Shown here: positions 40,399 to 63,431 of the stretch, in pieces
Layout of the letters: each line of letters begins with the position of its first letter
Numbering within the stretch: position 1 is the stretch's first letter
DNA from: Halichondria panicea
Taxonomy: Eukaryota; Porifera; Demospongiae; Suberitida; Halichondriidae
Assembly (NCBI RefSeq): GCF_963675165.1
Contig: NC_087378.1
Coordinates: 2,210,525-2,274,524 of the forward strand
Length of the DNA stretch: 64,000 nucleotides
Direction: 5' to 3'
Made by a program: the position numbers and the translations under genes
Notes under the pieces: generated by a model
Told to the model about the DNA's origin: nothing
The model's database searches: none
What the model saw: the letters and a program-made list of their open reading frames with translations, nothing else

Positions 40399-43300
40399 AT
40401 GGTGAAGTCACTGGAAGACTATTGTCTAGCATGTATTGCTCGCCACATTACCACCTTCAATCGGCTAGGTAACCACCTGAGCCTCAGGCACAAAGAGGTT
40501 CTCCTGGAGAGAATGTGTTGGCATCAGCAACTCACCCCTGAAGTCACCCCATCCATTTTCTACAACCTCTTCTCACATACCCTCCTCCGAGTGAACCTCT
40601 CCTACTCCCCTCAAGTCACGGATCGTACTCTTGAGTTGCTAGGCAACAGCGGATGCCTCCCAACCTCAATCACTCTTAACGATTGCCCCAATGTGACTGG
40701 TACGTACATACGGGTTTGGTCCACACCATTGCAATACTATTATTTCTGTGTCATTACCACACAGACAGAGGGATTTCCTGTCTTACCAGAATCCTGAGGA
40801 AGACTGAGGTTCTCAAGCTGAAAAGGCTGCATCAGATAACTAGCAAGGGGCTGAAATCTATTGTCTCCCGCTCCTTGAAATACATAAACCTGTCAGAGAG
40901 CAATGGAATATCAGATGAAGGGATCATTGATCTGGTCCACAACTGCCCCAATATTGAAAAGCTGAGTGTGTTTGAGCTGCACAAACTGTCTGACGTGTCC
41001 CTAACTCAAGTGGCTGCAATCCTAGGAGGCACACTTGTAAGTTCAGACCTGATACTATTACTAGCTCAGCTATGTGTGAAGGAATTCAGAACCATTTTCC
41101 ATCTTCCCTTTCTGTCTTGATGCATCACTGCGTGCTAACAAGAGCAAATGAGTAGATCTACTCATTTGCTCCTGGTGCTAATTACATGATAATTATGGGG
41201 TCTATTCCAAACTAGCCTCGTTCCAGGGTGCATTTCCTCCCGTTCTATTAAAAAAAAATCGGCGTGGGAACGAGGCTAATTCCAACTTGTAATACTGTTG
41301 TGTTAGAGTCTTCTTCATTATTACTACTTTTTCCTTCCAGACAGAGATAGACGCGTCTGATATAAACCTTGTGACCTCCCAGTCTACACAGGCATTGGCT
41401 GAGCATTGCAGGAATCTCACTGTGTAAGCACTTAGTAGTCTACCTGCACAAGGGCTGCACAGGAATATGTTTTGGAGCTTCAAATACATTATGTAACTGA
41501 TGCTAGCCGTACAATTAAGTGATGTACCTTCACCCTCACAGGGCTAAGTTTGAGAGCTGTGTTCGTCTAGACGGCTCTGGGTTGATACAGGTAGGGAAGT
41601 TTTTAAGGGATATGACTCAATTCTATGGTACTGCTCCTTACAGCTCACTTGAGGAAAATGATACAGCTGTTTGCATACAGTTATTAGTAAAACCAAGGGC
41701 GTATACAGAGAATACGCCCTTGGTAAAACTTACAATAATTATTCTGGGTAACTTGGCTGTAACCACAGTTGTAACACATAGCTGAATACCAAGCATCAAA
41801 CATCTAACTGCAAGCCCTGTACACCATGATAATTTCTTCAGCACAGCCTCAGAGAACAGATCCAGATGCCAATGAGGGTGTATAAAAATAAAAGTGTTCG
41901 GGGTTCGAGATAACAGTGATATTTTGCAGCAATGTTGCATACAGTAATGCATGTTGCTTCTCTTCCCCACTGGCCTACCACACTAACACCTCCACCCTGT
42001 GATGACACTTGCAGACTTAGAACTTACAAACCAAACGACTACTATACAATACCCGTGGCCGCCCACGCGCACCTGGGGTAAACATAGTTATGTTTCATAA
42101 TCATAATTATCCTCTTACTGTGGTTACAAATGTAAATATTGCAAGTTTTACTAACATGTAAATCACTCACTGCATTACCACAAAACCACCACAATGATCA
42201 ATCTGTGATCCTTGAAAGCTATATAATAAGGTGGTATGGAAATTCAAACCAAAGTATTATGATGAGAATTTGAAGTGTAGAATAGTCTACCAATGCTTTA
42301 TGCTGGGACTTGCATACCAGCAGATAGCTACTAGTCTGTCCACTGTATGGAGAGTTGTGAAGAAGTTTCAGGCTGAAGGAACTGTTAGTGCGAAGTACTG
42401 CTCACAAAAGATTGTTTTGAAAAAGCCTGCTGCTTATAAATACGAGGTTATACCGGTACTACAGTGAGCGAGTCAGCCATCTTAAGTGCAATAATTTTAA
42501 GTGTAAACAATTGCACTCACAGTTTTACATTTACCATTAATTTTGCCCCAAACTTCCAAATGAACTTGCAACGCACAGTATACAGTTCACAATATCTACA
42601 GTACACGTACCACATTGTCTTTATACAGTAATACACAAGCATAAAATGTACTCAATCACCTCTCCTTTCAGATGGCTGAACGATGTGATCTCACCGATCT
42701 CTGGATTTCATTCTGCTACAAAATCTCGCAGCCAAACATCGATATAATTGTGAGCCTTCTGAGAGCCAAGGAAAGAATGGTTACATTTAATGCCATGGGG
42801 ATAGGCATGTCCACACTCTCCATGCAGATGATAGCGGCCAGCTGTCTCACCTCCCTCTCTCTGTGCGGGGTCACAGCTCTCACTGACAGCACTGTCGATA
42901 TGGTAATGAACACGGTCACCCACATGGTATAATTATAGATCTGTGTCCCAGCTACACTATTAATTTTGGTCTGGAATGATTTAGGACTGAAATTTTAATC
43001 ATAATTATGATTATGCATTACTATATGAACTTGAGCTATAAAAATGCCTTTATTGGAACATTGGATCCATTAACCTAACTTTGCTGTGTCTCAGGTACAC
43101 GTATCTATGAGAATGTTTAGGTGTGGTTGCAATTAAGCATATTAATACTAATGGCGTGGCTGAAATTAACTACACGTCCTTCTGGTTCCCTTCACTAGAT
43201 CACCAAAGCCACTGGGCATAGCCTTGTGAATTTAGACGTCTCTAACTGTCTGTGGCTGACTAATCGGACACCTGCCGCTATTGCCCGCCACTGCCACGCC

Positions 43301-45086
43301 CTGGAGAAGCTGGGACTGAGGAACATGAAGGAACTAAATGGCAGAGAGCTATGTCCATTGTTCCTCGATAAAAGAGCCAAAAACTTCAAGTCTATCACTC
43401 TGTCGGGGTCAAAGAATGTAAGTGGAACTGGGTACAGAGACCAGTAAAGCTACACTATACTACAATGCATAAATGGTAATGCGCGCCTAAAGTTTAATGC
43501 TAGTGTCCAATACTTATACTTCCCAATGACGTACCTCTGTGTATGTAGTAGTATGCAGGGTGAGTACTATATATAATTATAGTAGGGAGTTTTGTTGCCG
43601 ACAAAAACAATTGTATGCCTATAATATAGGATATCTTTCCTGGTAGTGTTGTACATGTGAGTAGTTATAATGATTCTCATACACATAAAGCTTCTTCCTC
43701 GTAGCAGCTTGAATGCTTTCTGAGTACCTATAGCGGGAGATTTTTGTTGGTGCACATTTTTTGTTAACTATACCCAGTTAAATATTTCGTATTCTAAGTG
43801 GTTGTAATGGTGATGTAGGACCTATTGCGCATTAATATTTCGCAGTTTTACATTTTCTGGTTAATACGAAAAAACGAAAGAAAATTTTCGAAAATATCCC
43901 ACTAATACAGTATACCTAACATGTAGAGAAGGAATGCAGAGTTCACTTCGGATTTCTAATGGTGTGTGAATTATGAATTACATATGGCCATAAAATGCTG
44001 TGTGTGAACTACACCCACTATAGAATGATGTGATAATTCCCAACTTGTAAGGCATTGTATGTTGATTCAGATTCTTATTTGGGCAATCCAGAACCCAAAG
44101 AAATTAAAAAGCCACCTGTTGGTTGCCCTAATTAACGACCATGTACCATATCCTCTCATCTGCCATGACAGTGTGAGCTTACAATGTATGGTGATTATCA
44201 CCATCCATTTAGCATATTTTTTTAGGCACCTGTTATCTGTTGTTTCCATAGATACCAGCTACAGTTGTCTACGACATAGTAAGCAACTGTACCAGTCTAA
44301 AGATATTCACTGTGGCTGGTCTGAAAGATATAGACGACAGCATTGCTTTTGCTCTTGCTCAAAACTGCAAGAACGCTTGTCAGATCAGCCTTAAAAATTG
44401 TGAACTTACAGATAAAGGTGTTTGTGAGATTGCAGTGAACTGCTCTAAGCTGACCATAATGGCACTGGCTGGTGTAAGTCACCTCACTGACAAGTGTGTC
44501 ATTGCACTGGCAGAGAATTGCCATGAACTGAGAGAGCTGTACGTGTCGGGCTGTCCAAAGATCACCAGACAATGTATCACCTATCTCAAGGTGAAATGAC
44601 ATATTGATTCATAATCTCCAGAAGCCTGGTACATGGTAGTGATTACCTGATCTGATACCTGATACTATGCATGTATCATTTTTGGGTTTCTTCAAGGCTT
44701 TGCCTTTGATCTTGTTCTTGGCTTAAGTACCATTTTGGTTTTGCATGCATGGTTTTTAGTGGTATGTTGGCTAAAATTTTATAGTGCTTGTAATTTTGTC
44801 CGCTTACCTTTCAAACTGAAACTATGCAACTATGCATATGCTTTATTAAACACTGTACAATATCCTGTGTTACCTCAAATACAATGTTTAGCCACATTTT
44901 CTAGCTGATGTGGTATTATTCATGACACTGTTCCCCACCCAGGACTGTGCGATTGGTCGAGTGTGTGTCAAGCACACCATCCCGAATGCCCCCATTGGAC
45001 TGCTCATGGGCAAGGACCTAGATACTGGACAGTATACACGAGTTGACAATGTAGAATTTGACAGCCTCAAGAGCAAACTAGCATGA
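40399..45086 (+). CDS. AMN1/FBXL-type leucine-rich-repeat protein
   Basis: Exons 40399-40699, 40765-41036, 41341-41423, 41542-41590, 42672-42902, 43199-43417, 44252-44590, 44943-45086; 545 residues. After an N-terminal helical stretch (LEDYCLACIARHI) the protein is a series of cysteine-containing leucine-rich repeats of ~26 residues, e.g. LKYINLSESNGISDEGIIDL and LRELYVSGCPKITRQCITYL. Such repeats form curved solenoids in F-box (FBXL) ubiquitin-ligase subunits and AMN1. I see no convincing F-box, so AMN1-like is the closer match. AATAAA at 45086-45091 overlaps the TGA stop codon, implying a very short 3' UTR or use of another signal. Confidence 0.82.
41142..41171. repeat. Perfect 30-bp palindrome
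   Basis: GAGCAAATGAGTAGA followed at once by its exact reverse complement, in an intron of the LRR gene. Confidence 0.95.
41212..41278. mobile_element. 67-bp TAGCCTCGTTCC inverted-repeat element
   Basis: Left CTAGCCTCGTTCC and right GGGAACGAGGCTA are reverse complements, with ATCGGCGT before the right end as in the element at 891-1155. Intron of the LRR gene. Confidence 0.75.
41692..41724. repeat. 33-bp fold-back with CCAAGGGCGTAT ends
   Basis: 13-bp arms ACCAAGGGCGTAT/ATACGCCCTTGGT around a 7-nt loop. The arm equals the terminus of the 572-bp element at 16627-17198. Confidence 0.9.
42237..42420 (+). pseudogene. Transposase helix-turn-helix fragment
   Basis: An open frame in an LRR-gene intron reads KYYDENLKCRIVYQ, then GLAYQQIATSLS, then TVWRVVKKFQAEGTVSAKY. 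This is the homeodomain-like DNA-binding region of Tc1/mariner-type transposases. No DDE catalytic region follows. Confidence 0.65.
43725..43912. mobile_element. Degenerate ACCGTA-like MITE
   Basis: Left TACCTATAGCGGGAGATTTT and right, reverse-complemented, TACTGTATTAGTGGGATATT, with AAATTTTCG-like runs inside. Arms match imperfectly. Intron of the LRR gene. Confidence 0.5.
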
Positions 45087-45437
45087 ATAAAACAAACAAT
45101 AATTATTAATTAGCTTAGCAATAATGTTTTATCATGAATTTTATCACATCCATTTTTGTACAAGCACTCCAATCTTATCATCGTTACCTTGTATGGATGA
45201 ATCTTATGGCTGCTGCAATGTATTGTACGGACACTGCACTTGTAATAACATGTGACTTCAGAATTACCACCCAAAGCCTAATTTGTGGTTTGTTGACAGT
45301 TGATCTAATTGAGATACGCCCACACATTTTGCACATTAGATAAAAACGAGGGCACTCGGTTAACAATCATAATATGTTGTTTGAGAACTTAACTACCGTA
45401 GCTGATTAACTATTACTAGACCTCAAGCTAGCTCAAG
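45087..45437. promoter_or_regulatory. Intergenic region upstream of the EGF-rich ADAM
   Basis: 351 bp between the LRR stop and the ADAM start. It should hold the LRR 3' end and the ADAM promoter; I see no clear TATA box or other defined site. Confidence 0.4.
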
Positions 45438-48400
45438 ATGAAGCTGTTGCAGCTTTTAACGCTGCTAGTCGGTGCTGGCACCGCTCTAGCTGCGAGCAGT
45501 AGGAGACCTATCAGGAGTCTACATACACCCAAAGGTAAAAAAATCCTTTCTCTGGAGCCGGAGCTAGATCTAGCTGCCATGCATAGTCCAGAACCAGTGA
45601 TAGACATGCACACTAAAAAACTGTGTTGGAATAGAAGACTATGCATGCCACCTCAATGAATCCTTTTCTTGCAGAAACTGTTGAGAATTACGAGGTGGTG
45701 TTTCCAGTTGTCACTTATCCTGAAGGAAAGAAAGTAAGCTGGCGGGATCTAGCCAGAGTTTTACTGTTCTGCACTGACATAATTATTGTCAGCGAGCAAA
45801 AATGAATGTAATTATTATCTTCTATTTCTACCTCACCACAGGCACAGCGCCATCCCTCTGTGATGCATGTGCACATCGAGGCACAGGATGAGAGATACAC
45901 TATCGTCTTGAAGTTGAACGAGTGAGTTTGAGATCTACTACAAGTGACGTATGACCTGATTGTACTGTGTTTTCCAACTTTACAGTATGCTCATTCCCTC
46001 CAACTTCAATTCACTTTCTTATGATAAAGATGGCAGAGAAGTTATTACAACGGTATGTCATGTAACAATGTGTGCTATTTTATTTGTCACATTTTTCAAT
46101 GAATTAAACTAATTTATTATTAATTAATCTGTACTAACCCCCTCCTCTTATAGGGTCATGTGAACTGTTTCTACCAGGGCTGGGTGGAGGGTCACCCAGA
46201 GTGGAGAGCCACAATGAGCACCTGTACAGGATTAAAGTGAGACACTAAGTATCGAATTAGTACAATTAAATTACACACTAACCCCAAAAACGGCGTCCTG
46301 ATATGGACTCACATTTTTAATAGGGAGCCTTGCACGTGTCAGGTGATACTATAGTGCAGCCATATTCGTTGGATAGTTGTGAGAATACATCCGGACTTTG
46401 CTAAGTAGTTGCCAAGTGATTTTTACCACCTTGTGCATACATTGAACATCATGAATGCCCATTTATGATGATTTCAAGTGACACTTTAGATCATTTCGTT
46501 TGTTGCACATGGCTTCTGTTTATGATCAGGTAACGTGTGTGAGTGTGTGTGTTGTACTTGCAGAGGCACTTTTGGGAATTACCAAAACAAGAAAGAGCTA
46601 TTCCATTTGGAACCACTCGACACAAATGACCCATCTGTGAGTTTCATTTTTAAGTTTGTTCTAGCTCATTTTGTTTACTTTGCCTTGTTATTGTTTGTGG
46701 CAGTTGGAGCAGCCCCATGCACTTTACCCTGACATGGAACTCGAGATTGATGAAGGGTCTTGTGGTAGGTGATCTTTTTGCAACACTGCCTCCCTCCACT
46801 CACCATAAATTACACTGTCTCCACACACACACACACATGCACACACCCTCACACATTGCACTGCATCCACACACACACACATGCACACACCCTCACACAT
46901 TGCACTGTCTCCACACACTGCATCCACACACACACACATGCACACACCCTCACACATTGCACTGCCTCCACTCCACACACCCTCCACATCGCACTGCCTC
47001 CACTCCACACGCCATCACTTTGCACTGCCTCCACTCCACACACCCTCACACATTGTACTGTCTCCACTCTACTCACACAGGCTCTAATGAGACTCACATG
47101 GTGGATGAGATCGGTGGAGTGCCCATGCCTGATATAGAAGATCTGAGAGTAAATAACAGAATAAGCTAAAGCTTGACCCTGTGCATGCATGTACCTGTCC
47201 CTGTATATACCTACGTACCTTCTTTTCTATACGTACATAGGGATAATGATAAAAAATTGTGTTGTAACTTTGCAGCTGAAGAGACAAGTCAATGGCTTTT
47301 GGATTGTCGAATTGATCATAGTCAATGACTTTAGACAGGTAAGTGCTTGTGCGTAGATATATAATAATTATTATGCGCTCTGTTTGCATTATACAGTATG
47401 GTAGCCAAGGGCAAAACCTCGCTAACACTGTCAGTAGAGCTCTGAGTATTACCAACGAAGTGGACAGTGTAAGTTGCTCTATCAAACACTTGACATTGTA
47501 CAATGCACCCCCTCTCGCACACTTGCTGTATCTTTCACGACTCTCTCCCCTCACACACAGTCACTATAAGTATTGTTATCCAAATCAAATGTGGCACACA
47601 CTAAAATACTGCAACAGGTATATCAGGCCCTAAGCATCCGTGTGGTTTTAATCCAAAGTATCACTTGGACATCAGGAGATCAAATCACTATCGTCACTGA
47701 TCCAGACGTTGTTCTGCCTTTATTCCGAACTTATGGACGGACAGTTTCAACACCTCATGACTGCATACATTTAGTCACGTAAGAAATAACGAATTACATG
47801 TACCGTATAGCTAGTAGTTTCCGGGAGGGTGGGGGGGCAAAATATTCGTGGTTTTCGTGGTTAAACACTGGAGCAGGAATATTTTATCCCCGAATGAAGC
47901 GACCTTGCCAAGCAGCAACTACGAAAATAAGATCCACAAACTGACTAAATATTGCTCAACCAGGAATATTTTGCCCCCCCGAAAATTACCCGGTATACGG
48001 TATGTTGTGGTCACAATAGCTACCTTCGTTATTTCTCTGTAGTGGTATTAATTTGGATGGGGGTACAGTGGGACTGGCATATATTGGAGTCATGTGTGGA
48101 AGCGGTTGTTCTGGCCTCTCACAAGATGGAGGAAGAGGACTAACAGGAGTCGGAACTACTGTAGCTCACGAGCTCGGTCACAATTTCTTCATGAGTCATG
48201 ATGACGGTAAGAGTTGAACTTTGAAGTAGTGATTTGAACGTGTGCATTGTTGTTTTTGTGTTTAATTCCCTTCTGTATTCTTATTATAGGCATAGCAAAC
48301 ATGCATTATTGAACGTGTTTGAGGTGTAAAAAATCACTGTACAACTACACACATTTTCTCTCTGCCTACAGGTAGTTGCACATGTACTGACTCTGTGGGC

Positions 48401-51400
48401 TACTGTATAATGGCAGCAATATCCACAACTGGCCGTGAGCCTAGCTCTTGGAGCAGCTGCTCTGTTGCCTTCCTTAACACAGGCTTCCAAACACGAAACT
48501 TAAATCGGTGTCTTGGCAACCAACCTATAACAATGGTCGGCGATCCTGTCTGTGGTAACGGTCTTCGAGAAGGCGATGAAGTATGCGATTGTGGCTCGAC
48601 TTTGGAGTGCACTGATCCTTGCTGTAATGCTGCCACGTGCCAGCTAGCATCAGGGGCCCAATGCAGTGCAGGAGGATGTTGTAACACTCAGTGCCAATTT
48701 ATTAGTGCTGGCACCACTTGCCGAACATCTACGGGTAGTTGTGATATCACCGAATATTGTAGTGGGAGCGCCAGCGAGTGTCCCAGTGATGAGAGTGTGT
48801 TGGACGGAACAGCCTGCACTAGGAATGGCGTTGGTGCCTTCTGCTATTCTGGAGAGTGTCCAAATCTAGCCCTGCAGTGTCAAGAGGCTTGGAGTAAGTC
48901 ATCGATCTCTCTATCCTATGTATAAATATGATAGCTTCAGGTCCATACATTAATTAACCCGAGGCCGTGCTGCGGCCAGCGGGTTATAGTAGTTGTCTGG
49001 TTTGTCTGTCGATCTGTCTGTCTGCATGCATGGATTGTCTGTTTGTGATTTCTGAGTCTGCTCACCTGGATGCCACAGCGCTGCGTTTACAGCATGGATA
49101 GCCTTCACACAACTAGTAATAGTGGCAGATTTTGATGTCAAAGCTTCGTTGTCGAATAAAAGCTCGTTGTTTGCCGGTTAGCTAGCTACACGCGCACGAC
49201 CTTTATTCGAGTCACTTATTATTTTGTTGTTTTCTTTGCGGACTCTGCGATCCTAGCACCAGGACTCTAGGCTTCTTCTTTACTGTGATCCTGTGATAGT
49301 TTAGTGGTGCATGATAACTTGCGCTAAACTCTCTCAAATATTTCAGCATACTGCTGTACTAGCCATGCAGCTCAGTCATACATAGTCCTACTACATGCAC
49401 TGTATTTATTGTACATGTACATCATTCCTCTGGTTTCTATAGATCTTTATTATCGTCACCAGCCGAGGGTTTGCACTTTAGTGCTCTAGTTATTATTGTC
49501 ACTCATATCCAATGATTATTGTCTTTGTTCTTATAGCTACATCATCAACCAATGGGGGATCTGCGTGCTTTAATCTGAACACTCGAGGCGATAGATTTGG
49601 CAATTGTATTGTCCATGCAACAGATCCACTCACCTATACAGCTTGTACCACTGCGTAAGTGTGTGTTGATGGCTAGTCTTCTAGCAATATGTTTTAATGT
49701 ACTGTTTTAGGTTGCAATTGATTTACTTTTTATGTTTAGCTTTGTAAGTTGAGCGAAGTGACAGGAAATCTTTCTTTTTCCTCTGTAGCAATGTTGGATG
49801 TGGTCTCTTGCATTGTATGAACACAGGCAACTTCCAGTTGAGCAATGCTAACTACCTTTTGGGCACTATTACTCCTTTTCAATCACAACCATGCAGGCGA
49901 GTTTATCAACTGCTTTGAATGTACATTATGTCATGATTTACTACAATGCCCGTTATCGCACGTTAAAACCTCGATTACATATGCAACCTTGGTAACCTAT
50001 GAAGCCAATTTGGGTCACTACATTTGAGGACATGCATACAAAAGAAGATGGGGTAGAAAGAAGATCAGGGTATGAACCTTTAAGGGCGAACATTTCCATT
50101 CTGACCGAGTATGAATATCATTCTGTATATAAACTCTTGTTGTTATTTGTAATAATTCGATTGTGACATTGCCTGATATCGTTGCAGGTCTTACTTCAGC
50201 ACAGATGCTGATGCTGTTGGTGCAGGGTTTGTATCTGACGGCATTGCATGTGGTACTGGCAATGCCTGTTTCAACAGACAGTGTGTAAATCCTTCACAAC
50301 TCACCACTCATACCTGTCCAGTGGGCTCTAACAGTCTACTCTGCTCAGGAAACGGGGTGAGCTTTAATACATGCACCTACGTACACAATAGCAGCACTGA
50401 TCCACCACAGCAGTTTATATAGAAACAGACAAGCTATAATAATTGTCCGACACTGCATTGTGATGCATTTGTACACGTTTTACATAATATAGCCAGCCGA
50501 AAAAGGACTTGATCATTGTTCTGTTTCCTTACTATAATTATAGCAATGTAACAACAATGGCGGCTGTTCTTGCTCTGCTGGTTTCTCCGGAACTACCTGT
50601 CAGACTTCAGGAGGTAGGTATCAGAATACAAAGTATATAGCTACTCAACTAACTTCAGAGCTGCTATACAGACATACATTATAACTAACACCTGTTTTAT
50701 TTTACAATTTGATTGACAGCTGTTAATCCATTTCAGTTCCAACCAATGAGTGTCTCAACAACAATGGAGGCTGCGCTCAGACATGCACAGACACAACCAG
50801 CTCTTTCGTGTGCAGCTGTGCGACAGGATACAATCTTGCCAGTAACGGACTCGGTTGCAATGGTATGTCCTCTAAATACAGCTAGCCATATGGGAGTTCT
50901 ATACATATAATTATATGGGCAGTGTACGTGTGTGTGTGTGTGGGTGGGTGTGTACTTTTATAGTTGTGCAGGATGTGACCCTGCAGCATATCACATTGTA
51001 TGTCGTCTGACCTTTGATATCATACGTTCATTTGTTTGTACTTGTGATTCTATACTCTCCACATTGTCTCAGACATCAATGAGTGTAACTCTAACAATGG
51101 CGGCTGTGCTCAAGGCTGCATCAACACAGCGGGGTCCTTTCAGTGCAGCTGTGGAACTGGGTACACACTGGCCACTAATGGAATAACATGCAATGGTGCG
51201 TTCACATTTACTCACATTTTCACATTTTTGGACAGCTTTAATATTCTGAATCCTGGGAAGAGATCAAACCCACACGCCAATTACTTATGTGTAGTAATGT
51301 ACACATGTATGGTATATGTATAGCCAACTCGACAATTGCCTCGACAAATATAGACCTGCATGGTTTATGGTTTCCGACATATCCCACGTACATGTACATG

Positions 51401-54400
51401 CAGGAACTACAACTAGCCAGCTATGTTATGTGACCCCCACACGTTTCCCTTTACTATAACCTCCCTAATATGAGCAGATATCAATGAGTGTGTGGCCAAC
51501 ACTGATGGCTGTAGCCAGTTCTGTACCAACACTGTCGGCTCCTTCACCTGTTCTTGTAGCAGTGGATATACTCTCGCCAGCAATGGCCGCACTTGCAATG
51601 GTACGTATTACATACACAATCTAGTGAAACTTGTTAGTACAATATTAGACTTATAGGCATACAGGCTTCCTTGTGCATGCATGGTCTCTTTTGATGGGGT
51701 TAACGTGTCCATGTTGACTACACTGAGACCATAGTTTACATGCATCCCAAAATGTACGGTGGGTGAGTGGGAAAGTGTAATCCTAGCCTCTTACACGGAA
51801 TTAACAAATGTAACTTGAAGTGATGTGGTGTATATACTTGTACACGATAGCTCTGTCCCCACATGAATGTTTGTATTGAGTTGTGATGCATTATAATGCT
51901 AGATAACAACGAGTGTGCTCTCAATACTGACAACTGTCAGCAAGTCTGTATCAACTCGGCCGGCACGTTCAGTTGTGCTTGTAACAATGGCTATACTCTC
52001 AACTCTAACGGGATAACATGTTCAGGTAAGCAGCACACACTATGGACCATTGAACACCTGAGCTGTTAACGCCATAGCGATGTGGTGACAGTGTCAAACA
52101 TGTAATATGAATGGTGCATTGTTATAGAGGCCATGAGAAAGATATGTATACGTATGCACAATCTGTATGCAGTATTAATATTATGGTGCTCAAGGAACGC
52201 TGTTATGGTACTATTATTAGCCTTTAGAAAACAGTACTACCGCATGTACTATAACTGACTTAATGATGTTTTTGTGCACAGATGTGAATGAGTGCAATAC
52301 TAACAATGGCGGTTGTGTGCAGACATGTACAAACACTGCTGGGTCTCGTACCTGTGGTTGCAACTCTGGATACTCACTTGCCAGCAATGGAGTCTCGTGC
52401 AATGGTACGTCAGGCTATTGTAGAAGAATAGTTAGAAGCAAAGTGCACATCATTGTATTGCGGTTATAAATTATCACGGCGTCATACACACCAAAAAATT
52501 TCACGTTTACGTTTCGCTCCGCACGTTACGAAAAACTTCATCTCTTACGGCAGCGTCTGATCAAAAGTATTTGTGTTATGTTTAACGTTTGTCATTGGTG
52601 ACTGTGCTTAATTACATATTTTGTGCACCGGAATCTCTAGACATCAACGAATGCTCGTCAAACAATGGCGGCTGTGCTCAGCGCTGTACCAACACAGTGG
52701 GATCATTCCAGTGCAGCTGTGGAACTGGATACACGCTAGCAGCAGATGGGAGAACATGTAGTAGTAAGTGTAGCTAAACAGGCTTAGAAGTTCAAATTAA
52801 TGTGACACTCTCTCAGATATAAATGAGTGCATGGCCAATAATGGGGGATGTGACCACTCTTGTACCGACACTACTGGCTCCTTCGTGTGTAGCTGTATCT
52901 CTGGGTTCAGACTGGCTACTAATGGACGAACTTGCAACGGTTTGTGGGAATACAACTTTCTTAGCTACAGAACTATCCACTTTCTCCCACACATTCAGCT
53001 ATCAACGAGTGCCAGGAGGGAACTAGCAACTGTGCCCAGCTGTGCACAGACACTGGCTCCTCATTTGTATGCTCTTGTATGAGTGGCTACGTCCTAACTA
53101 ACGGGGTCAACTGTCCCGGTAAGTTAGAGCCTCTGTGAGTGCATGAATCAGCCCAAGCTTTATGGCTCTTCTCTCTCTCCTATATAGACATTAACGAATG
53201 CTCCACAAGCAATGGAGGGTGTAATCAGATCTGCAGCAACTCTCAAGGCTCTTTCCAGTGCAGCTGTAACAGTGGCTACTCTCTAGCTGCTGATGGAATG
53301 ACTTGTGTGGATTTGAACGAGTGTCAACTCAACACTGACAACTGCCAGCAATCTTGCTCTAATATAAATGGTGGTTTCACTTGCTCCTGCATCTCTGGAT
53401 ACATACTTAATAATGACGGAAGGACATGTAGTGGTATGTTAGCTCAAAACAAAACTTGGCATTTTTAATATCTGATTGAATTCCCTACCAGATATAAACG
53501 AGTGTTTTACAAATAATGGTGGCTGCAATCAGGGCTGCACTAACACTGCTGGAGGCTTCACTTGTGAATGTCAATCGGGATACTTGCTCGCTCAGGACAG
53601 CCAAACCTGCAATGGTAGATTCTTGCATGAATACTAGTCCAGGAATTGTCAAATAACCACTAAATTCTTACAGACGTGAATGAGTGCTCGACAAACAACG
53701 GACTTTGCTCTCAGCTGTGCTCCAATAATGATGGGTCATTTGAATGCAGCTGCAATACTGGGTACACACTCAGTGTTAATGGAGCCACATGCCTGGGTAA
53801 GTGATCAAACATTAATTTTCTGAATATGATCAGATGCTGCCAGTAAAAATTCGCAACGCCAGAAAAAAACGCGCCTGAAAAATCGCCATGCATTTCTATA
53901 TTCGCTCAATCAATGGTTCATATATCATTCGCACTGTCCAGTTTTTAGCACAGATGATGTTGACTCACACACACACCAACACATGCACACTCTTTCTTTC
54001 TCAGACATCAATGAGTGTAACTCTAACAATGGCGGCTGTGCTCAGGACTGCGCCAACACATTAGGATCTTTTCAGTGCAGCTGTGAAAATGGATACACAC
54101 TGGCTGCTAATGGAAGAGCATGCAACAGTATGTTTGTAGCTATCCAACATTTTTTGTTTGGACTCAACAAGAACAATTTGTGCACTTATATAGTACTTGT
54201 CGTATATGTGCAGGTAATGTACATTTTGTTTGCTCATGCAGATATCAACGAGTGCCAGAGCAGCAATGGTGGGTGTGACCAGATCTGTACAGACAACGTT
54301 GGCACCTTTGTGTGCAGCTGTAACACTGGTTTTGAACTTGCTACCAATGGACAAACTTGCACTGGTGAGTAGCAGCTGACTTACTTAACATTAGGTGTTC

Positions 54401-57400
54401 TTCTGCATAAATTATGGACAGTCTGTTAAAGTAACAACATTGAGTGGTGTACAAGCTATATCATTTATAATAGGGGAGCCATCAATTGTGCTGTATATGT
54501 ATGCCTTTATATCAATCGTACCTTTACAGCTATTAACGAGTGTGCTGATGGCACCAACAACTGTGAACATCTCTGCATGGATACTGGATCCTCCTTTGAG
54601 TGCTCGTGCAGAAATGGCTACACCTTGAACGCTAATCAGGCAACCTGCGATGGTAAGCAATTTTACTGCATCATATATACATGCACCATGCAGCAATCTG
54701 CTTTTATTGATTCTATACTCTCATCATAATGTTCTTATTGGCCATAAAGTACTTCCAAAAACAACGCACTCTTTATTTACATTGTCTTTGTTTTTATTCA
54801 GACATTGACGAGTGTATCACAAACAATGGAGGATGCTCAGACACTTGCCGGAACTCAGCCGGGTCCTTTGACTGCGTGTGTCCCAGTGGCTTTACCCTCA
54901 ATGCCGATGGACTCTCATGCACAGGTGAGTAGGTATCTCTCTCTTTGTAGCTACTTCGATTTGGCGTGCACTTAAAATTCAGTAATTTTTCGTCAATTAT
55001 ATAGAAAGACAATGCAAAATGCGCGCAATCTACACACACAAGTGCGTGTGCTTGGGATGTTTTATATATAATTATAGCTGGCTCATAATTACCTGTAATA
55101 ATAGTCACACCATTTATGATATGTTTTTCTACAGAAATCAATGAGTGTAATTCAAACAATGGCGGCTGTGATCAGACCTGTACGAACACTGTCGGAGCCT
55201 TCCAGTGCAGCTGTAGCGCTGGGTACCAACTCGATACTGATGGTCTATCATGCGAAGGTAAGCTGATCACTTGAAATGAATATTATGCTAATTGTATCCT
55301 GTTCGGAACCGCAAAGCATGGTTGTAATAATTATGAATGGCACCATTAATTGTTCAGTAGTTTTGCTAATTTAACATATTTTGCTAAGTTTTGTAATGTA
55401 ACACATTGTACAACCCTCTTTCTTGTTTACCTAAACAGACATTGATGAGTGCTTACTGAGCAATGGAGGCTGTGACTCTGTCTGCTCTAACACGGAGGGC
55501 TCCTTCGAATGTGACTGTAACACTGGGTTCAGAATAGAAGCAGACGGAAGGACTTGTACTGGTACGTATGTGAGCATGTAGAACCAACGATCTACTAGCC
55601 TTGTTGATTGCAGAGTAATCATGCAATCTCCTGTTAGTGTAGCTAGCAGGAAATCATTACCAGCTGTATATTATATATTATTATTCACACACACTTTCTG
55701 TTCCCACATGCAGCTATCAATGAGTGTGCAGAGGGAACTAACAATTGCGAGCAGTTGTGCTCAGATACCGGTGATGCCTTTGTCTGCTCTTGTCGCAGTG
55801 GGTACACACTCAATCAGGATCAGGCCACTTGCACAGGTAATCTTTATTATATTAGTATGTCATGTGTGAATGTGTCAACTTGTTTTAAAATTAGAAGTGA
55901 CTTTATTTCAAATGACAAGATTGTATCGTAATTATGTCCCTGTGTAAATACATACAACATGTAGGTATGAATGTGTACATATACATAGCTAATTCTCAAA
56001 AATTACTGTTTTCTCATGATAATGGTAGCAAACCTGAACGTGTACAAGCGTCCACAATAATTAGTATGAAATCCCTCTAATCATTAATTTGATGTTGCAG
56101 ATATCAATGAGTGTGATGCACAAGCGGGTGGAGTGTGTGAGCAAAATTGTGATAACACTGACGGAGGGTTCGAGTGTTCCTGTAATAGCGGCAAGCAATT
56201 GGACGCCAACGGATTCACTTGCTCAAGTGAGTGTTGAAATTCATACTTCCATATTGGAACGGGTGTACGAATTGTGTAAAAATGCTATGTACTATACACA
56301 TTTTCTCCTGTAAATCATGAGTTCTTATTTCTCCTGCAGACATCACTTCAGTTGTGGATGAAAACGGTGAGCTCTCTCTGTTCCTTATGTGCATGCACAC
56401 CTCACAGGCAATCGGCATTTTTGCTTAGTCTGAGTCTGACAGCTAGTAGTACACACACATACATGTACCTCTTTATGTGTAGTAAACATACGAACTAACT
56501 CCTTCACACCTACACACACACAGTTGCTCCTATAGGTGGCATTGTCGGTGGAGTGATCGGCGCGATAATTTTCTTTGTTTTGTTAATAGTCATCGTCATC
56601 ATTGTGGTCACAGTGCTGATGAAAAAGCGAAGCGATAAGACCGAAGGTGACTACAGACCATCGAAGGCAAGCCCAAGCAAACAAAACTCCTCACAGCTGC
56701 ACAGACCTGTCCATGCTTCTCTGACTGGATCAAGTGACAATCTCTTGAACACTTCTACCAATGGTTACCACAACAGTAACATAGCCTACGTACCAGCTAT
56801 GACAACTTTCAGTAATCCTTCTCCAACCAGTCCAACCAGTCCAATCTCAAACGGCCGCTATACTAAAGGATATACCCCACCCCCCGTAACCCCTGCACCC
56901 AGTGGCCCCCCACCTAGACGAGCAGCTCCAATGGCCCCCAAGACAAACCCTGCACCTTCGGCACCCCCCAAATCCTACCTACTACCCGTCAACTCAGTGC
57001 AGTCTCCTCCACCGAAACCAGCCAAACCATTCCTGCAGTCAACACCTCCCCCAAAACCAATGAAGCCTCCGGTCCTCTCAAAGCCTCCGGTCTTCTCAAA
57101 ACCTCCAGTCCACTCAAAACCTCCAGTCCACTCAAAGCCTCCAGTTCACTCAAAGCCTCCTCCGTCTACCGGAACTCCCCTGTATCCGCCATTGAAGCCA
57201 GTAACAGGAGACATTGCAAAGCCTGCTCCTAAGCCAAAGCCAGCCCCTCCACCTAGTAGACCAGTCGCACAGGATAGAAGAGCTCCACCTCCGGCACCAG
57301 CCGTGAAACCACAGCCGAGTAACAAGCCTGTTCCAAGTGAGTAGATATACATACGTATATATACGGCCTATGCTAGGAACCTTCCCTGTCATAAGGTACA

Positions 57401-57677
57401 ATAATGCCTTTCCTACTCTATAAAACAGCGTTGCCCAATGCTATACAACGTACAACACACTTCGTCTAGTCTATGTATAGTACTATTGCCGTGTTTATCG
57501 TAATTATTTCCACACACAGCTCCCAGACCGTCTGTAGCCCCTCGAAGTAACAGCAAGCCTGTTCCTCCCCCGGCCCCCAAACCCACAGCTCCACCTGCCC
57601 CCGTGAACAGCTCAACTAAACAACCCATGGCCCCACCTGGCGGCAAAAAAGCAATGGTACCGCCCCCAAGAAGATGA
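45438..57677 (+). CDS. ADAM metalloprotease with 20 tandem EGF domains, membrane-anchored
   Basis: 39 exons, 1,831 residues in one frame. Order: signal peptide (1-19); prodomain ending in a furin-type RLKR (~199); reprolysin domain (exons 47276-48206) with [13 protein letters not shown] at ~337 and a CIMAA Met-turn; disintegrin ([15 protein letters not shown] to EYCSG); cysteine-rich region; the usual ADAM EGF (50544-50613). Then 20 more EGF domains, ~679-1499: 50737-50862, 51073-51195, 51478-51600, 51903-52025, 52282-52404, 52641-52763, 52817-52939, 52999-53118, 53188-53433 (two), 53492-53614, 53674-53796, 54005-54127, 54242-54364, 54530-54652, 54802-54924, 55135-55257, 55439-55561, 55714-55836, 56101-56226. 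Most start DINEC, the calcium-binding type. Last come a linker (56340-56366), one membrane helix (~1515-1540) and a ~290-residue proline-rich tail with KPPVHS repeats (56524-57336, 57520-57677). Family role: surface shedding and adhesion. Exon 49896 appears to use a GC donor. Confidence 0.88.
46815..47079 (+). repeat. CA-rich minisatellite before an ADAM exon
   Basis: Tandem copies of TCCACACACACACACATGCA with CACCCTCACACATTGCACTG, then a shorter GCCTCCACTCCACACACCCT series. The array runs up to the CACACAG acceptor of the exon at 47081. Confidence 0.9.
47801..48002. mobile_element. ACCGTA-type MITE in ADAM intron
   Basis: 202 bp. Left TACCGTATAGCTAGTAGTTT then GGGGGGGCAAAATATTCGTGG. The right end, reverse-complemented, begins TACCGTATACCGGGTAATTT then GGGGGGGCAAAATATTCCTGG. 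It lies in the intron just before the catalytic-motif exon. Confidence 0.85.
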
Positions 57678-57854
57678 ACTGAATATCACAACAATTATTA
57701 CCCTCCCTAAATTAGCGTGTTGCTCTGTTTTTAAATCCAATGCATGTGTAGACGTGAAAGTTATAGCACAAATACATTCACTATTAATTATTCTTTTAAA
57801 TCACTGAAAATAGACAAACAATTTTGCAAAATTAAATGATGAATGAAAAGAATA

Positions 57855-59994
57855 CTAAAGCGTCCATATTTGGTTGACATTGTTCAGCGAGTCTTCTGGG
57901 TCATTCTTGTAGAACATAAAGTAGCCTTGTAGCTGAGCCATGCTGACGGGTTTGTTCATACAAGTCACTTGCTCTGCAAACAGCTGGGCTCTAGCAATAG
58001 GCTGCTCTGGGTAGAATCGAAGGTACATCTGCTCCAGTTGGTACGGAGATGCATAATCAATAGCAACCTTCATGTCCACTCGTCCCGGTCTAATTAAAGC
58101 AGGGTCCAACCTAAACCAATAAATCAACATTAATTATACAGCATACATTGAAAGAGCATAATTATATAAATTATAGTCAATGTGATTGGATGCACACAAT
58201 AATTATGTAATTACGTATACCCTGTGCGTGCGCAGCAGGGGTAGAGTGATTGGTGTGTGTGTGTGTGTGGACACAAAAATGAGCTGTTTGAGCGAACTAG
58301 ACACCTTCATGGACTGCTTCAACTGCTAATGAGACAGTAGGATAGACTAGCTATAGTTTAAACTTGTAGGTGATCTTCGAAGGCGACTGTTTTCTAATCA
58401 ATCTCGCTTTATAAAGTCACGATCATTCCCCATTTACAATCCCAGAAGGTCATTACGATAAAAAGTTTTGTATCCGTTTTGCCGCTCTGCGCGTGCAATG
58501 AAGCTCAATGCACGGGGTGGAGCATCTTGTTACAGTGATGCATAGTGAACCCACCTGTCTAAGTAGTTGGTGGTCATGAACACGACCCTCCCCTCAGTTG
58601 ACGCCACTCCATCCAAAGTGTTCAACAGCCCACTGAATGTGACTCTACTCAACCCTTCGTATGCCGTTTTAGCCTTTGCACTCTCCTCACGGCTCACAAA
58701 TGCAGCATCCACATCTTCTAAAAGTACAAGACTTCGCTGAGGGGCTAGACTGAGCAGGTGGTTGAGACGATCGTCAGACAATCCTCGATCACTCAGGTTG
58801 AGTACACAGATGCTGTAGTCCAGCTCACCAGCCAGTGCTGTACTATTGTGTGTGCGTGTTGGAGGGGAGGGGGGGGGGGGGGGCAATATTTTGTGGGATG
58901 TATTTGTGAATGCATAAAAAGAACAAAGTCATTCACAATCAGAACAAGTTCTAGCACATCTCGCCTCTAGGGCATTGAGTGGTCATTACATGAAACTACT
59001 CTTTCCACAGCCTGGCGGACCATAGAGAAGGTAACCACGACGATAGGGAATGCCTGAAAAGCAACAGCAAAGTATTTATTTCCAATAATTGTTGTTCCAA
59101 CGTAAGCAGCACTCACCTCTCTCCATGTACCACTGCGGTGTACTGACGAAGCCCTTGATGTCATCCACAATAGCCTCTGTGATGCCCTGGTTCAGTATCA
59201 CTGAGTTGATGGCCCGGTGTTTCCGTGGGTAACCAAACTGGCGCCACTCGGCCCCGACAGGAGTATACATGATCGTTTTGCCCTCCATCTCCTCCAGAGC
59301 CATTTTCCTGGCTTAATACACATGTGCATACCAGACACAAACCAAGTAAACAAGGGGACTAAAACAGTACTTTTTACAAATGCAGAGTTTTATAAACAAG
59401 CTCCACATACCTAACTAGAAACCTGATAAAAGGGGGCACATAATTATATACACTTGACATTGACATAGTGTATTAGGTTATGTCATCAGTTAGATCTACC
59501 AATAGTGACTAGACTAGATAAAGAATAGACATACCTTCTTCCAAAATTCCGAAGTACACCCCTTTGTCTCTACCAAGGGCTGTAAGTGTCACTGTTTCAA
59601 ATGGAGTCCCATTTTGAAGATTCACCATTTGTTTCTCCCTGTTTCGTTCGACTCGTATCCATGTCCGTTTGTACCAGAATATATGAACCCCTGGACTCGG
59701 AATAAAATCAAATTTAGTCCTAATGCTTCCGTTTTCCAATTGTTGGAAGGTCGTCTGAGCACTCAAGTGTTGGGTATGGCTGGCATTCTCTGTTATCCAC
59801 TGAAGAAGCCATTGGTAGCTCTTGTCTCTACTGGGGACTTCTAGTGTGATCATACAGTGCCTTCTGAACATAATCATGCCAAGCTGACTGCCCTTCCTCA
59901 GAAAAGCAAGCCCAGCTCCAACTCCAACCAGTCCAAACCCTGCACCAAAGTATGGATTATTCTGCAAAGCTCCTACAAACTCTGCTAGCCCCAT
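57855..59994 (-). CDS. BCS1L: Mitochondrial AAA chaperone BCS1
   Basis: Five minus-strand exons: 59994-59535, 59311-59117, 59053-58990, 58842-58555, 58110-57855; 420 residues against 419 in human. The N-terminal hydrophobic stretch (~16-32) and following residues match the BCS1 membrane anchor and internal targeting region. The BCS1 N-domain ([32 protein letters not shown]) is followed by the AAA module with Walker [11 protein letters not shown] (~228-237), Walker [12 protein letters not shown], and sensor region [19 protein letters not shown]. The family moves the folded Rieske iron-sulfur protein across the inner mitochondrial membrane for complex III assembly. Its 3' end is 177 bp from that of the EGF-rich ADAM, with no overlap. 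Confidence 0.96.
58862..58882. repeat. Poly-G/C run near a BCS1L splice acceptor
   Basis: A G-run (C-run on the gene strand) with CACACA lies directly upstream of the acceptor of the exon starting at 58842. It serves as an extreme polypyrimidine tract. Confidence 0.8.
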
Positions 59995-60813
59995 AGTGAA
60001 GTGATTTAATAATTTAATAATTAGTAGTCAATGATTAAGGACGCCCTTGAGTTTACTTTGGCCATGTGGTCTTTGATGACTGCGCATGTGCAATAGCAAA
60101 CATCACACAGAATCTATGTATAAATTCTTGGCCTTTCTGTTCTACCATTAGGTTGCCATGGATTACATATAGACTATTTAATAACAGGAATTCAAGAAGA
60201 ATTGTATTGCTGTAAATCTCCCATAGTGTGCTATCTGTGACATCATCGCAGAATCTATGTGAGAAGGAAGACAAACATTCAAAACAACACTCGTACCATC
60301 CTCGGCTAGGGTCTGTTACCTCCGCTAGTTTCACACGACTGGGTCTCAACATCAACTCCCCTTGCCCCAACAATAATAATAGTATCGGAAAGTCTGGCCA
60401 CATTTCCAGTCAACACCCAGTGCAGTATCATCTAAATTTAAGTACATGTAGTACACATGTATTGCCAATACTATTGCATGGGTCCATTTCACCCACTTCA
60501 TGCATTGTAAGCATGTTTCTGAAAGGACTCACCACAAAGAAGCTATAGACCATATTTTGTCAGCAGCCTATGGTTCCATTGATCTGTTCAACACACAATA
60601 CCTTAATTATTATTGCTGTATGATCTGATCAACAAGCAAGCACTTACTTTAAACAGTGTCATTCTATTTTCAACACTTGGTATAAATAAATAAATAATTA
60701 TAGAGTCACATTAATTCACAAAAAGCCTGAGTAAAAAATGAATACTAATGAACTATGTTCTATAATAATAATAATTATAATACAATTTCATATCACAAAA
60801 GTTGGTTGTTCAA
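59995..60813. other. Upstream region of BCS1L with an unexplained open frame
   Basis: 819 bp between BCS1L and the second ADAM. A 116-codon minus-strand frame (60403-60053) begins MWPDFPILLLLLG and contains hydrophobic segments. I recognise no family, and possible splice sites interrupt it, so it is not called as a gene. The right part is AT-rich and probably holds the ADAM 3' UTR. Confidence 0.3.
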
Positions 60814-63431
60814 TCAAGGCTTGGGAGGAACAAGAGGCCTCCTTGTAGCAGGCACTCCGGGCCTCGGTGCAGGCTTAATTGGTGGCTGGTGGTTGGCATT
60901 ATCTAGGGGTTTTTAAAAATATGTTTGTTATCAAGAGCATATGCATAGGGGTGCATGGTTTGGTTTAATGCATTACACACTAAAAGCTTACAGGGCGGAG
61001 GTGGGTCTTCTCTTGAGGCAGGTATTGGTCTAGACGGTGGTTTAGCCGTGGGTGGAGGAGGTTTGAAAGCTGGTCCTCTGGGTTGTGCCGTCCGTGAGGG
61101 TGGTGGGCGTGAGGGTGCTGGACGTGTGGAGGGAGTAGTGGGAGGACGTGAGGGTGGGGGAGGTCTTGTTGCCGCTGGAGAGGGAGTTAGCTTATTGGAC
61201 CGTACCACACTAACTGATGTGACAGGTTTAGTAGTGGTGTGACCGTTTACTGATCGGCCTCTGTGTGATGGGGTGTACTTTCCGTCCTTGTAAAACTTTA
61301 TCAGCACTACTGTGACAACCACTGCCCCAACGATCAGAGCAAGCACAAGGAGGGTTCCAATGATACCCCCAGCTATCGCCCCACCTGTAAAGGAGAGAAT
61401 ATAGCAGTGGATCAGCAGGAGTCCTTCAACATGATTGTGATATAGTAAAAACCATAGAGTGTACAAGAGTACATGTAAGTCTAAGCGGAATCTGTCATTG
61501 CTAACTCTTAGTTCTGAGTTTGAAATGGACAGGCATAGGCCACTGTAGTATATTCTGACATACATGTAGAGTGGACACATTAACACACACACACACACAC
61601 CTGACGCTGATGCTCCTCCGCCAGGCACATCGATAAACTCACTGCAGACAGACCCACCAGAGCCAACATTGCATGAACACATATTGTCAGTGTTGCATAC
61701 CTAAAAAGAGAAGAAATTCGTATGTCATGCACGTATTAGAGACACATTATTATTTTTATCAACGCAATTGACAAGTTCACGAGTACATTATCTTACTCTA
61801 CCCACACACACTGTCATGTGATTCCCCTTGACGTACCCCGTTTCCAGAGCAGGAGAGTCCATTGCTTCCTACCGAACAAGGAGGGATGTTCAGGCTGGTC
61901 AAGGGCACACACTGTCGTTGGAAGCACACCTGCAAACAGCAAAATACATATATACTTACACAAGTATCACAACTACGAACAATACATGAATCCAAAGTGC
62001 ACTATTAAAGTGTCCATGCATGCATACAGTATGATTGATTGCCAAGCTGAAGGCTTACCATTTCGTCTCCACACTTTGTGCCTTCATCAACCAGTCCGGG
62101 ATTTACAGCATCTGATGATGTCGGGGTAACTGAGCCACGACACTGGTGAGACACTCGATTGTCATCTCTGTTTGAAACTGTGATGACGGTGGTGAAGATG
62201 TTGTTCGGGTTGGTAAATTCCCCAAATTCACAGTAGAGGAGACCACACATCTCGTCTCCTGATGCACATGAGAGATATTGGTTTTGGGAGGGATCGTGGC
62301 CACAGTTGCCAAATTGATTACCAGCCAGGTTCCTTGAGTAGCACTGGTCTATACCTTTATTGGTGTCTGCAGGGAGGAGAAATTACAAAAATGTATGTAA
62401 GTACATGTATGTAGTCTGAAAATACAGTTTAGATACACATACCGTAAAACGTCTAATTAAGGCGCCACTCTAATCTTAGCGCCAACTTTAAACAGTCTAA
62501 TTTTTCTTTGTTCTAATTGGGGGCCAAATGAAGCCATCAAAGCTATTTATCAACGTGGCCGTCACTTTAAATAAGGCTAAAGTATTTTTCTCTGTTCTAT
62601 TTGTGCGCCATAAAACCTTAATTAGAATTTTTACCGTACTTAAGTATATGTTGCATGGTATAGTACATGCAGCATAATGGATGCAGTAGGTTACCATAAT
62701 TCTTTAACTCACTGAAGTCGATCTGACACTGAGAATCATACGAGAGACAAGTACCAGAGAAGCAATACGAGTCGTTGTTGTTGCAAAGCTGTCCGTCCTG
62801 AACTCTGAAATCCTCGGGACAGTCCGAGGAGTCACCAGAGCAATACTCCGTGATGTCACACTCCTGGGTGGACTCACGACAAGTGGTGCCATAGAGACGG
62901 AGCTGACAGCTGTCACAACAAGAGCCGGAGAAACACTCAGCCCCATCTATCAGCTGACAGGAGGTGGCATTGCAGCAGGGATCAGTGCAGATCTACAGAT
63001 ATATGTGTACATACGGGAGGAGAGTTGGCTCAGTCACAATTTACATTGTACATGTAGTGTACTCAAACAACTCAAACATTACTGACACAAGTACAGTCAC
63101 AAGACAATGGGAAATTCGCATGCAGTGTGCTGCATGTAGTCACACTTTAATCATAATTTATACTCTAGCCCAATAGTTCGGCACCAATTAGTTCAGCTCA
63201 CCTCTGGAGTGCCACAGTCGCAGACCTCCCCTGTCTCTCTGAGTCCGTTCCCACACACTCCCTCTCCCAAAATAGCCGCTGGCTCGTTGAACAGACAAGA
63301 GTTGAGACCGTATATTGTGAAGCCTGCATCGAGGTCTTCTTGTGAGCAGGTGGACCAGCGAGTGGATGGAATAGACCCTGACACGGAAGCCATGATACAG
63401 TTCCCTGTCGGGTCATTACACGTGCATGCTC
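60814..63431 (-). CDS. Second ADAM, conventional architecture, 5' part outside window
   Basis: Minus-strand exons in the window: 63431-63202, 62992-62713, 62366-62059, 61929-61837, 61700-61601, 61384-60992, 60902-60814; 496 residues. The first starts at the Met-turn region (CNDPTGNCIMAS), so the HExxH exon lies beyond 64000. Then come disintegrin (CGNGLRETGEVCDCG, CCNATSCQLIDGAECFSGSCC, ITEYCSG), cysteine-rich domain, one EGF-like module (CSGNGVCNTDNMCSC), a Gly-rich linker and a membrane helix (GTLLVLALIVGAVVVTVVLI). The tail is proline-rich with SRPPP, KPPSRP and a PPPPY motif. Unlike the neighbouring ADAM it has no EGF array. Matching disintegrin exon content suggests the two are paralogues. 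Confidence 0.9.
62440..62638. mobile_element. TACCGTAAAA MITE in second ADAM intron
   Basis: ~199 bp. Left TACCGTAAAACGTCTAATTA then AGGCGCC. The right end, reverse-complemented, TACGGTAAAAATTCTAATTA then AGG, with TGGCGC further in. Arms match ~19 of 23 bases. Confidence 0.75.

Follow-up and report, generated by a model that had tools for sequence, protein, structure and literature searches.

AE1, a predicted ADAM protease of the sponge Halichondria panicea with twenty tandem EGF modules ahead of the membrane

The analysed stretch of DNA (64,000 nucleotides, hereafter the window) corresponds to C2:2210525-2274524 of the genome of the demosponge Halichondria panicea (131 Mb, 39 contigs), and contains a gene, named AE1 here, which is predicted to encode an ADAM protease continued in frame by 20 epidermal growth factor (EGF) modules, a membrane helix and a proline-rich tail. 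Judged from its sequence, AE1 appears to be a member of the known ADAM class that carries a layout not found described, and its ADAM part and EGF array very likely form one gene. The reading favoured here, held with moderate confidence, is that AE1 is a type I membrane ADAM standing on a long EGF stalk and acting away from its own membrane.

Gene model and domain layout of AE1

The exons of AE1 were picked by eye from the letters, and the frame and splice sites were then checked by script. The model comprises 39 exons at 45438-57677 on the forward strand (Table 1), with a coding sequence of 5,496 nt including the stop codon, which reads through 1,831 amino acids with no internal stops. Of its 38 introns, 37 are bounded by GT-AG and one, with the donor of exon 15, by GC-AG, and phase 1 is seen at all borders between the end of exon 17 and the start of exon 39, these two included. 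There are no N letters at 45001-58000, and neither the tRNA scan of the whole window nor the Rfam scan of 45000-58000 (gathering threshold) gave any matches.

The translated product has the order signal peptide, prodomain, RLKR, reprolysin, disintegrin, Cys-rich, ADAM EGF, 20 EGF modules, membrane helix and proline-rich tail. The full-length Pfam scan gave nine families, including the propeptide, reprolysin, EGF_CA (16 stretches), FXa_inhibition (19 stretches) and cEGF, while Disintegrin, ADAM_CR and one EGF_2 are not listed there and were seen when residues 407-678 were scanned alone. The disintegrin domain scored 78.1 bits in the genome domain scan, and its loop reads SCD, in agreement with xCD, a notation for the ADAM disintegrin loop given in the available text of PMC4848645. 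The best 19-residue hydropathy of the membrane helix is 3.75 at residue 1519, and the tail contains 20 overlapping PxxP motifs. Among the best 60 of 89 distinct PDB sequences (E<=0.001), the closest structures to the AE1 head are snake P-III-type metalloproteinases and ADAM22, with 2ero and 3hdb among the matches. A preliminary description of this DNA had proposed a complete ADAM continuing in frame into EGF domains, a helix and a proline-rich tail; the 39-exon frame without a stop and the Pfam domains agree with it, and its count of 20 EGF modules past the ADAM EGF was confirmed, these being encoded by 19 exons, of which exon 26 carries two.

AE1 has the features by which ADAM (M12B) proteins are recognised, namely reprolysin, disintegrin with Cys-rich, a propeptide with a convertase site, and a membrane helix with a tail. 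It departs from the layout with a single EGF-like module before the membrane, with 21 EGF modules in total, and its zinc motif has one fixed signature position changed from Gly to Phe, the signature not being required for ADAM membership. The preliminary description does not mention this change. Since the AE1 head groups with sponge ADAMs in the tree described below, the extra EGFs are treated as a variant feature of an ADAM. Membrane ADAMs (ADAM9, 12, 19, 22) share with AE1 the order prodomain, convertase site, reprolysin, disintegrin, Cys-rich, EGF, helix and proline-rich tail, as laid out in the accessible portions of PMC3055250 and PMC4848645, whereas AE1 adds twenty EGF modules before the membrane and the Phe-for-Gly zinc motif. 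The same portions of these two papers agree with the earlier statement that known ADAMs carry an EGF-like module. The further statement that no family of this layout has been described agrees with the literature covered: in the papers on ADAMs and domain layouts no ADAM with an EGF array was found described, in a set mostly without subscription papers, which makes this weak evidence of absence. A partial protein, P0017, nevertheless has at least the beginning of the layout outside this genome.

The EGF array, the zinc motif and the predicted role of AE1

The EGF array is regular in its construction. The C6-to-C1 spacing is 5 in all 19 links, the packing aromatic after C5 is present in 19 of the 20 modules, and a hydroxylation-type motif likewise in 19 of the 20, while neither the O-fucose (C-x4-[ST]-C) nor the O-glucose motif occurs in any of the 20. 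In all 153 module pairs of equal length, which take in 18 of the 20 modules, pN is below pS (means of 0.32 and 0.78; the pairs are not independent), which indicates that the modules are under selection. Mean identity between modules is 49-58% at offsets 1-11, and the best partners (EGF 2 with 6 and 13, 7 with 14, and 15 with 19) indicate growth of the array by duplication. Compared with the rest of the genome, a four-module block is at most 64% identical among the matches listed (of 207; 150 of 595 candidates scored). Because the borders of the module exons are in phase 1, both growth by duplication and in-frame exon skipping are possible.

The arrays of fibrillin, LRP and thrombomodulin share with AE1 tandem EGF modules, a DINEC-type calcium consensus and short uniform links. 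The nine Pfam families of AE1 include none of the TB (8-Cys) domains that are the hallmark of fibrillin, the YWTD propeller and LDL-A repeats of LRP and the LDL receptor, or the LNR and ankyrin hallmarks of Notch; by these Pfam matches, AE1 differs from fibrillin in having no TB domains and from LRP in having no LDL-receptor propeller. We know of no ADAM head in fibrillin, LRP or thrombomodulin.

In the favoured reading, the propeptide of AE1 would probably be removed at RLKR, and the 20 EGF modules, most of which have the calcium-binding consensus, would form a calcium-stiffened rod, by analogy with fibrillin, the tandem calcium-binding EGF (cbEGF) modules of which form rods according to the available text of PMC7545174. 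The uniform link length and the conserved aromatic are as expected of such a rod. From the usual length per module, the rod would measure some tens of nanometres, and it would carry the head off the membrane, so that the targets bound and cut by AE1 would belong to the extracellular matrix or to a neighbouring cell, and not to the surroundings of its own membrane. The array could lengthen through exon duplication and shorten through exon skipping, with the frame kept. Of the two roles proposed earlier for the array, to hold the protease far from the membrane or to add ligand binding, the first is the best reading, with rod shape and reach being predicted properties. ADAMs are usually viewed as cutting proteins near their own membrane, and an ADAM head on a calcium-dependent rod would work in another zone, the matrix or the facing cell. 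Replacing or shortening such a natural spacer would allow a direct test of whether the distance from the membrane governs which substrates an ADAM chooses.

Several points weigh against this reading. Only 15 of the 20 modules carry D or N at the position of the first calcium ligand (by eye), and the same available text of PMC7545174 also gives observations that challenge a strict rigidity of cbEGF rods. Moreover, the protease activity of AE1 is unsure because Phe replaces Gly in its zinc motif.

The last point leads to the alternative that survives best, which is possible but doubtful: AE1 would be the same single gene with a non-cutting head, which serves as an adhesion receptor or ligand surface on the EGF array as its stalk. 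ADAM22 is an example of an inactive ADAM, and its chains are among the best PDB matches of the AE1 head. A HExxHxxXxxH motif is readable in 110 of the 113 proteins from the ADAM-head search (none in 3), with Gly in 95, Asn in 7, Ser in 7 and Phe in a single one, P0125. Against a loss of activity, none of the three His is replaced in AE1, and the Glu and the Met-turn are retained as well. Further, the Gly seems not to be strictly held in the sponge clade, since Asn or Ser stands at its position in 14 of the 110 motifs, many of them from sponge ADAMs. Among 18 sponge or species-unassigned ADAMs, 14 have Asn or Ser, three have Gly (P0016, Amphimedon P0020 and Geodia P0022) and one has no motif; Asn or Ser in place of the Gly of HExxHxxGxxHD in 14 of 18 is in itself an oddity for a metzincin motif.

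This alternative overlaps with another one, compatible with an active or an inactive head alike, in which the array would mainly bind ligands in the manner of LRP, thrombomodulin or Notch and would not be a spacer. It is considered unlikely. The best PDB matches of the four-module block (best 60 of 144 sequences) are LRP2, thrombomodulin, LRP4, NELL2 and the LDL receptor, and the modules differ from one another to the degree given above, both of which would suit ligand binding. On the other hand, the link lengths are strictly uniform, the Notch-type O-fucose motif is absent from all modules, and in another sponge ADAM, P0015, the equivalent place is taken up by some 206 residues of Ser/Thr-rich spacer, which favours a spacer role.

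The junction between the ADAM part and the EGF array

That the ADAM part and the array form one gene, as the preliminary description had it, is borne out by the continuous frame and phase across intron 17, which is only 123 bp long. The splice sites of this intron are ordinary: the donor comes 15th and the acceptor 7th from the weakest of 38, by a leave-one-out matrix built on the AE1 exon choices themselves. Neither AATAAA nor ATTAAA occurs at 50357-51073, and the 60 codons before EGF 1 contain stops and no in-frame Met, a reading made with neither a gene finder nor a promoter scan. In addition, exon-end phases are the same in AE1 and its paralogue A3 in 12 of 12 of the first exons.

The joined layout is also seen, in part, in P0017, which is one open reading frame (ORF) of 541 amino acids on a contig of 1,736 bp and shares 51% identity with the query along 71% of the latter. 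It extends across the junction, covering the stretch between the convertase site and the ADAM EGF (GTTCQT) and continuing into a cbEGF (DVNECASNNGGCAHTC). The ORF is apparently intron-free over a span where AE1 has ten introns (8-17), and P0017 is therefore most likely RNA-derived. It most likely comes from another species, given the 51% identity and the presence of only three disintegrin loci in the H. panicea genome. As in AE1, the ADAM head is followed directly by a cbEGF; unlike in AE1, only the first cbEGF is visible before the end, and the zinc motif has Asn. Among 125 proteins from three protein searches, P0017 is the only one with the cbEGF core motif, of which AE1 has 15. The layout, or at least its beginning, is thus also found outside this genome. 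A clade of AE1 and P0017 is not proposed: the tree of 21 rows does not settle that fork, and AE1 does not conform in letter composition to what the model assumes.

Other observations speak against a single gene of the proposed form. P0017 stops within its first cbEGF, and its final letters are presumably adapter read-through. AE1 is known here from genomic letters alone, so that its splicing in H. panicea is a prediction. AE1 itself was not returned by the protein searches, two of which covered 1,007-3,204 amino acids and one, with a 678-residue query, about 373-1,187, whereas P0013 from the same contig was; in two of the three (one of each size range), scoring was confined to the 8,000 candidates with the most words in common. 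The public annotation may contain AE1 in a different form or not at all. No ADAM with an EGF array was found in the long-protein searches (1,007-3,204 amino acids; 11 matches, and 2 of 217 candidates). Finally, the membrane and tail region of AE1 and that of the neighbouring ADAM A2 were not found by genome search with one another: one query gave a single match (itself), and the other gave three (itself and loci on C10 and C14, E~7e-5). In direct alignment, the two tails scored above 500 of 500 shuffles, narrowly (174 against a maximum of 167). Since the genome searches do not link the tails, their homology was dropped as a strong argument for one gene, and the phase pattern alone was kept.

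That there are two neighbouring genes instead, one for a soluble or short ADAM with exon 17 as its last exon and one for a membrane protein with the EGF array, is quite improbable. Each part does consist of whole modules, a short separate 5' exon ahead of exon 18 is conceivable, and chance neighbours occur, as exemplified by the CCP-membrane exons downstream of A3, which recur elsewhere on C6. Read-through of intron 17 adds 23 further residues before a stop, so that a soluble ADAM isoform is possible, and this would also suit two genes. These points are opposed by the short gap with neither a poly(A) hexamer nor an in-frame Met before the array, by the agreement of phases at the junction, and by P0017, which unites both parts in one apparently intron-free ORF.

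Related sponge ADAMs and neighbouring loci

By domain scan, the three disintegrin loci of the H. panicea genome are AE1, A2 and A3, and all three have an ADAM EGF exon with a phase-1 end. A2 is of ordinary layout; it and AE1 lie tail to tail, separated by another gene, and the 496 residues read for A2 from the window are identical to the end of P0013. Like in AE1, the membrane exon of A2 begins in phase 1, and the two are 44% identical over 99% of the ADAM part. In contrast to AE1, A2 has no EGF array and a zinc motif with Asn, which is also found in A3.

The distance from the ADAM EGF to the best hydrophobic stretch is 844 residues in AE1, 24 in A2, 15 in Ephydatia P0014 and 206 in Ephydatia P0015. 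The script that measured it was applied to AE1 and 18 sponge or species-unassigned proteins, of which 11 lack a readable ADAM-EGF motif, two (P0058 and P0017) break off too soon, and two more (P0019 and P0023) gave no convincing helix. P0015 of Ephydatia muelleri (1,019 amino acids) resembles AE1 in having an ADAM head, a long spacer, a helix and a proline-rich tail, but its spacer is Ser/Thr-rich and repetitive, and that of AE1 consists of EGF modules. A tree of 21 proteins unites the 14 sponge or species-unassigned rows, AE1 and P0017 included, in one group with support of 100/100, several inner relations being unsettled. This group, together with the three spacer kinds among those examined, suggests that ADAM layout is more varied in early animal lineages than the vertebrate members show. 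Tentatively, the stretch that links the ADAM EGF to the membrane might be a slot for exchangeable spacers in sponge ADAMs, with almost none in A2, a Ser/Thr-rich one in P0015 and twenty cbEGF modules in AE1, where phase-1 cassettes would set the cutting distance by duplication and alternative splicing. If true, AE1 would be a length-tunable surface protease.

Table 1. Features of AE1 and of other loci (window positions unless a contig is named)
Feature	Position	Strand	Content and evidence
AE1 exon 1	45438..45534	+	Start codon and signal peptide (judged by eye)
AE1 exons 2-8	45675..47148	+	Prodomain, with Cys-Gly EGSCGSNE as possible cysteine switch; PF01562, residues 53-113, E=3.6e-6
AE1 convertase site	47146..47284	+	Proprotein-convertase site RLKR|Q, divided by exon 8/9 intron; translation
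AE1 exons 9-12 and start of exon 13	47276..48526	+	Reprolysin (M12B); PF01421, residues 207-401, E=1.5e-35
AE1 zinc motif	48167..48202	+	Phe replacing Gly of HExGHxxGxxHD
AE1 exon 13	48372..48893	+	Met-turn region (CIM), disintegrin, start of Cys-rich; PF00200, E=1.3e-20
AE1 exons 14-16	49537..50356	+	Cys-rich and start of ADAM EGF, GC donor on exon 15; PF08516, E=3.7e-19
AE1 exon 17	50544..50613	+	Remainder of ADAM EGF-like module, phase 1 end; PF07974, E=1.1e-4
AE1 intron 17	50614..50736	+	123 bp, where ADAM part meets EGF array; contains in-frame stops and lacks a poly(A) hexamer
AE1 exon 18	50737..50862	+	EGF 1 (VPTNEC...)
AE1 exons 19-23	51073-51195, 51478-51600, 51903-52025, 52282-52404, 52641-52763	+	EGF 2-6, each phase 1-1
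AE1 exons 24-25	52817-52939, 52999-53118	+	EGF 7-8
AE1 exon 26	53188..53433	+	Two modules, EGF 9 and 10
AE1 exons 27-29	53492-53614, 53674-53796, 54005-54127	+	EGF 11-13
AE1 exons 30-36	54242-54364, 54530-54652, 54802-54924, 55135-55257, 55439-55561, 55714-55836, 56101-56226	+	EGF 14-20
AE1 exon 37	56340..56366	+	Linker of nine codons ahead of membrane
AE1 exon 38	56524..57336	+	Membrane helix (~56538-56624, hydropathy only) and proline-rich cytoplasmic tail
AE1 exon 39	57520..57677	+	End of proline-rich tail and stop codon
A2	60814-63431	-	P0013, 858 amino acids, public name 'zinc metalloproteinase-disintegrin-like EoMP06'; last seven exons read
A3	C6:2371519-2380321	-	Third ADAM, close to A2 (L008, L010)
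CCP exons past A3	C6:2366200-2369198	-	
Leucine-rich-repeat gene end	43199-45086	+	~350 bp upstream of AE1 (by eye)
AAA-type ATPase pieces	57858-60027	-	Between AE1 and A2; presumably BCS1-like (by eye)

No A2-like membrane exon was found for A3 by genome search. Past A3, there is an ORF resembling a mobile or domesticated element (by eye), followed by the CCP exons. A3 may be soluble, broken or joined to these exons; a fusion of its ADAM part with five CCP (sushi) exons and one membrane exon was considered and is not claimed. The search with the membrane tail on the A3 side gave 10 matches, all at 2308-2366 kb of C6 and two of them the query's own place, so that the CCP exons are more likely part of a CCP gene family next to A3. 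ADAM10 is reported in the H. panicea proteome after vibrio contact in the available text of PMC12345144.

Four long proteins (P0001, P0006, P0008 and P0009) contain 4 to 23 disintegrin-type stretches and gave no match to reprolysin; Kelch repeats occur in one of the four. They represent a repeated disintegrin fold outside ADAMs. At L029 (C14:5648000-5657500, reverse strand), two similar EGF stretches, which we take to be Delta-like, lie around an ORF that is presumably RecQ-type-helicase-like (both judged by eye).

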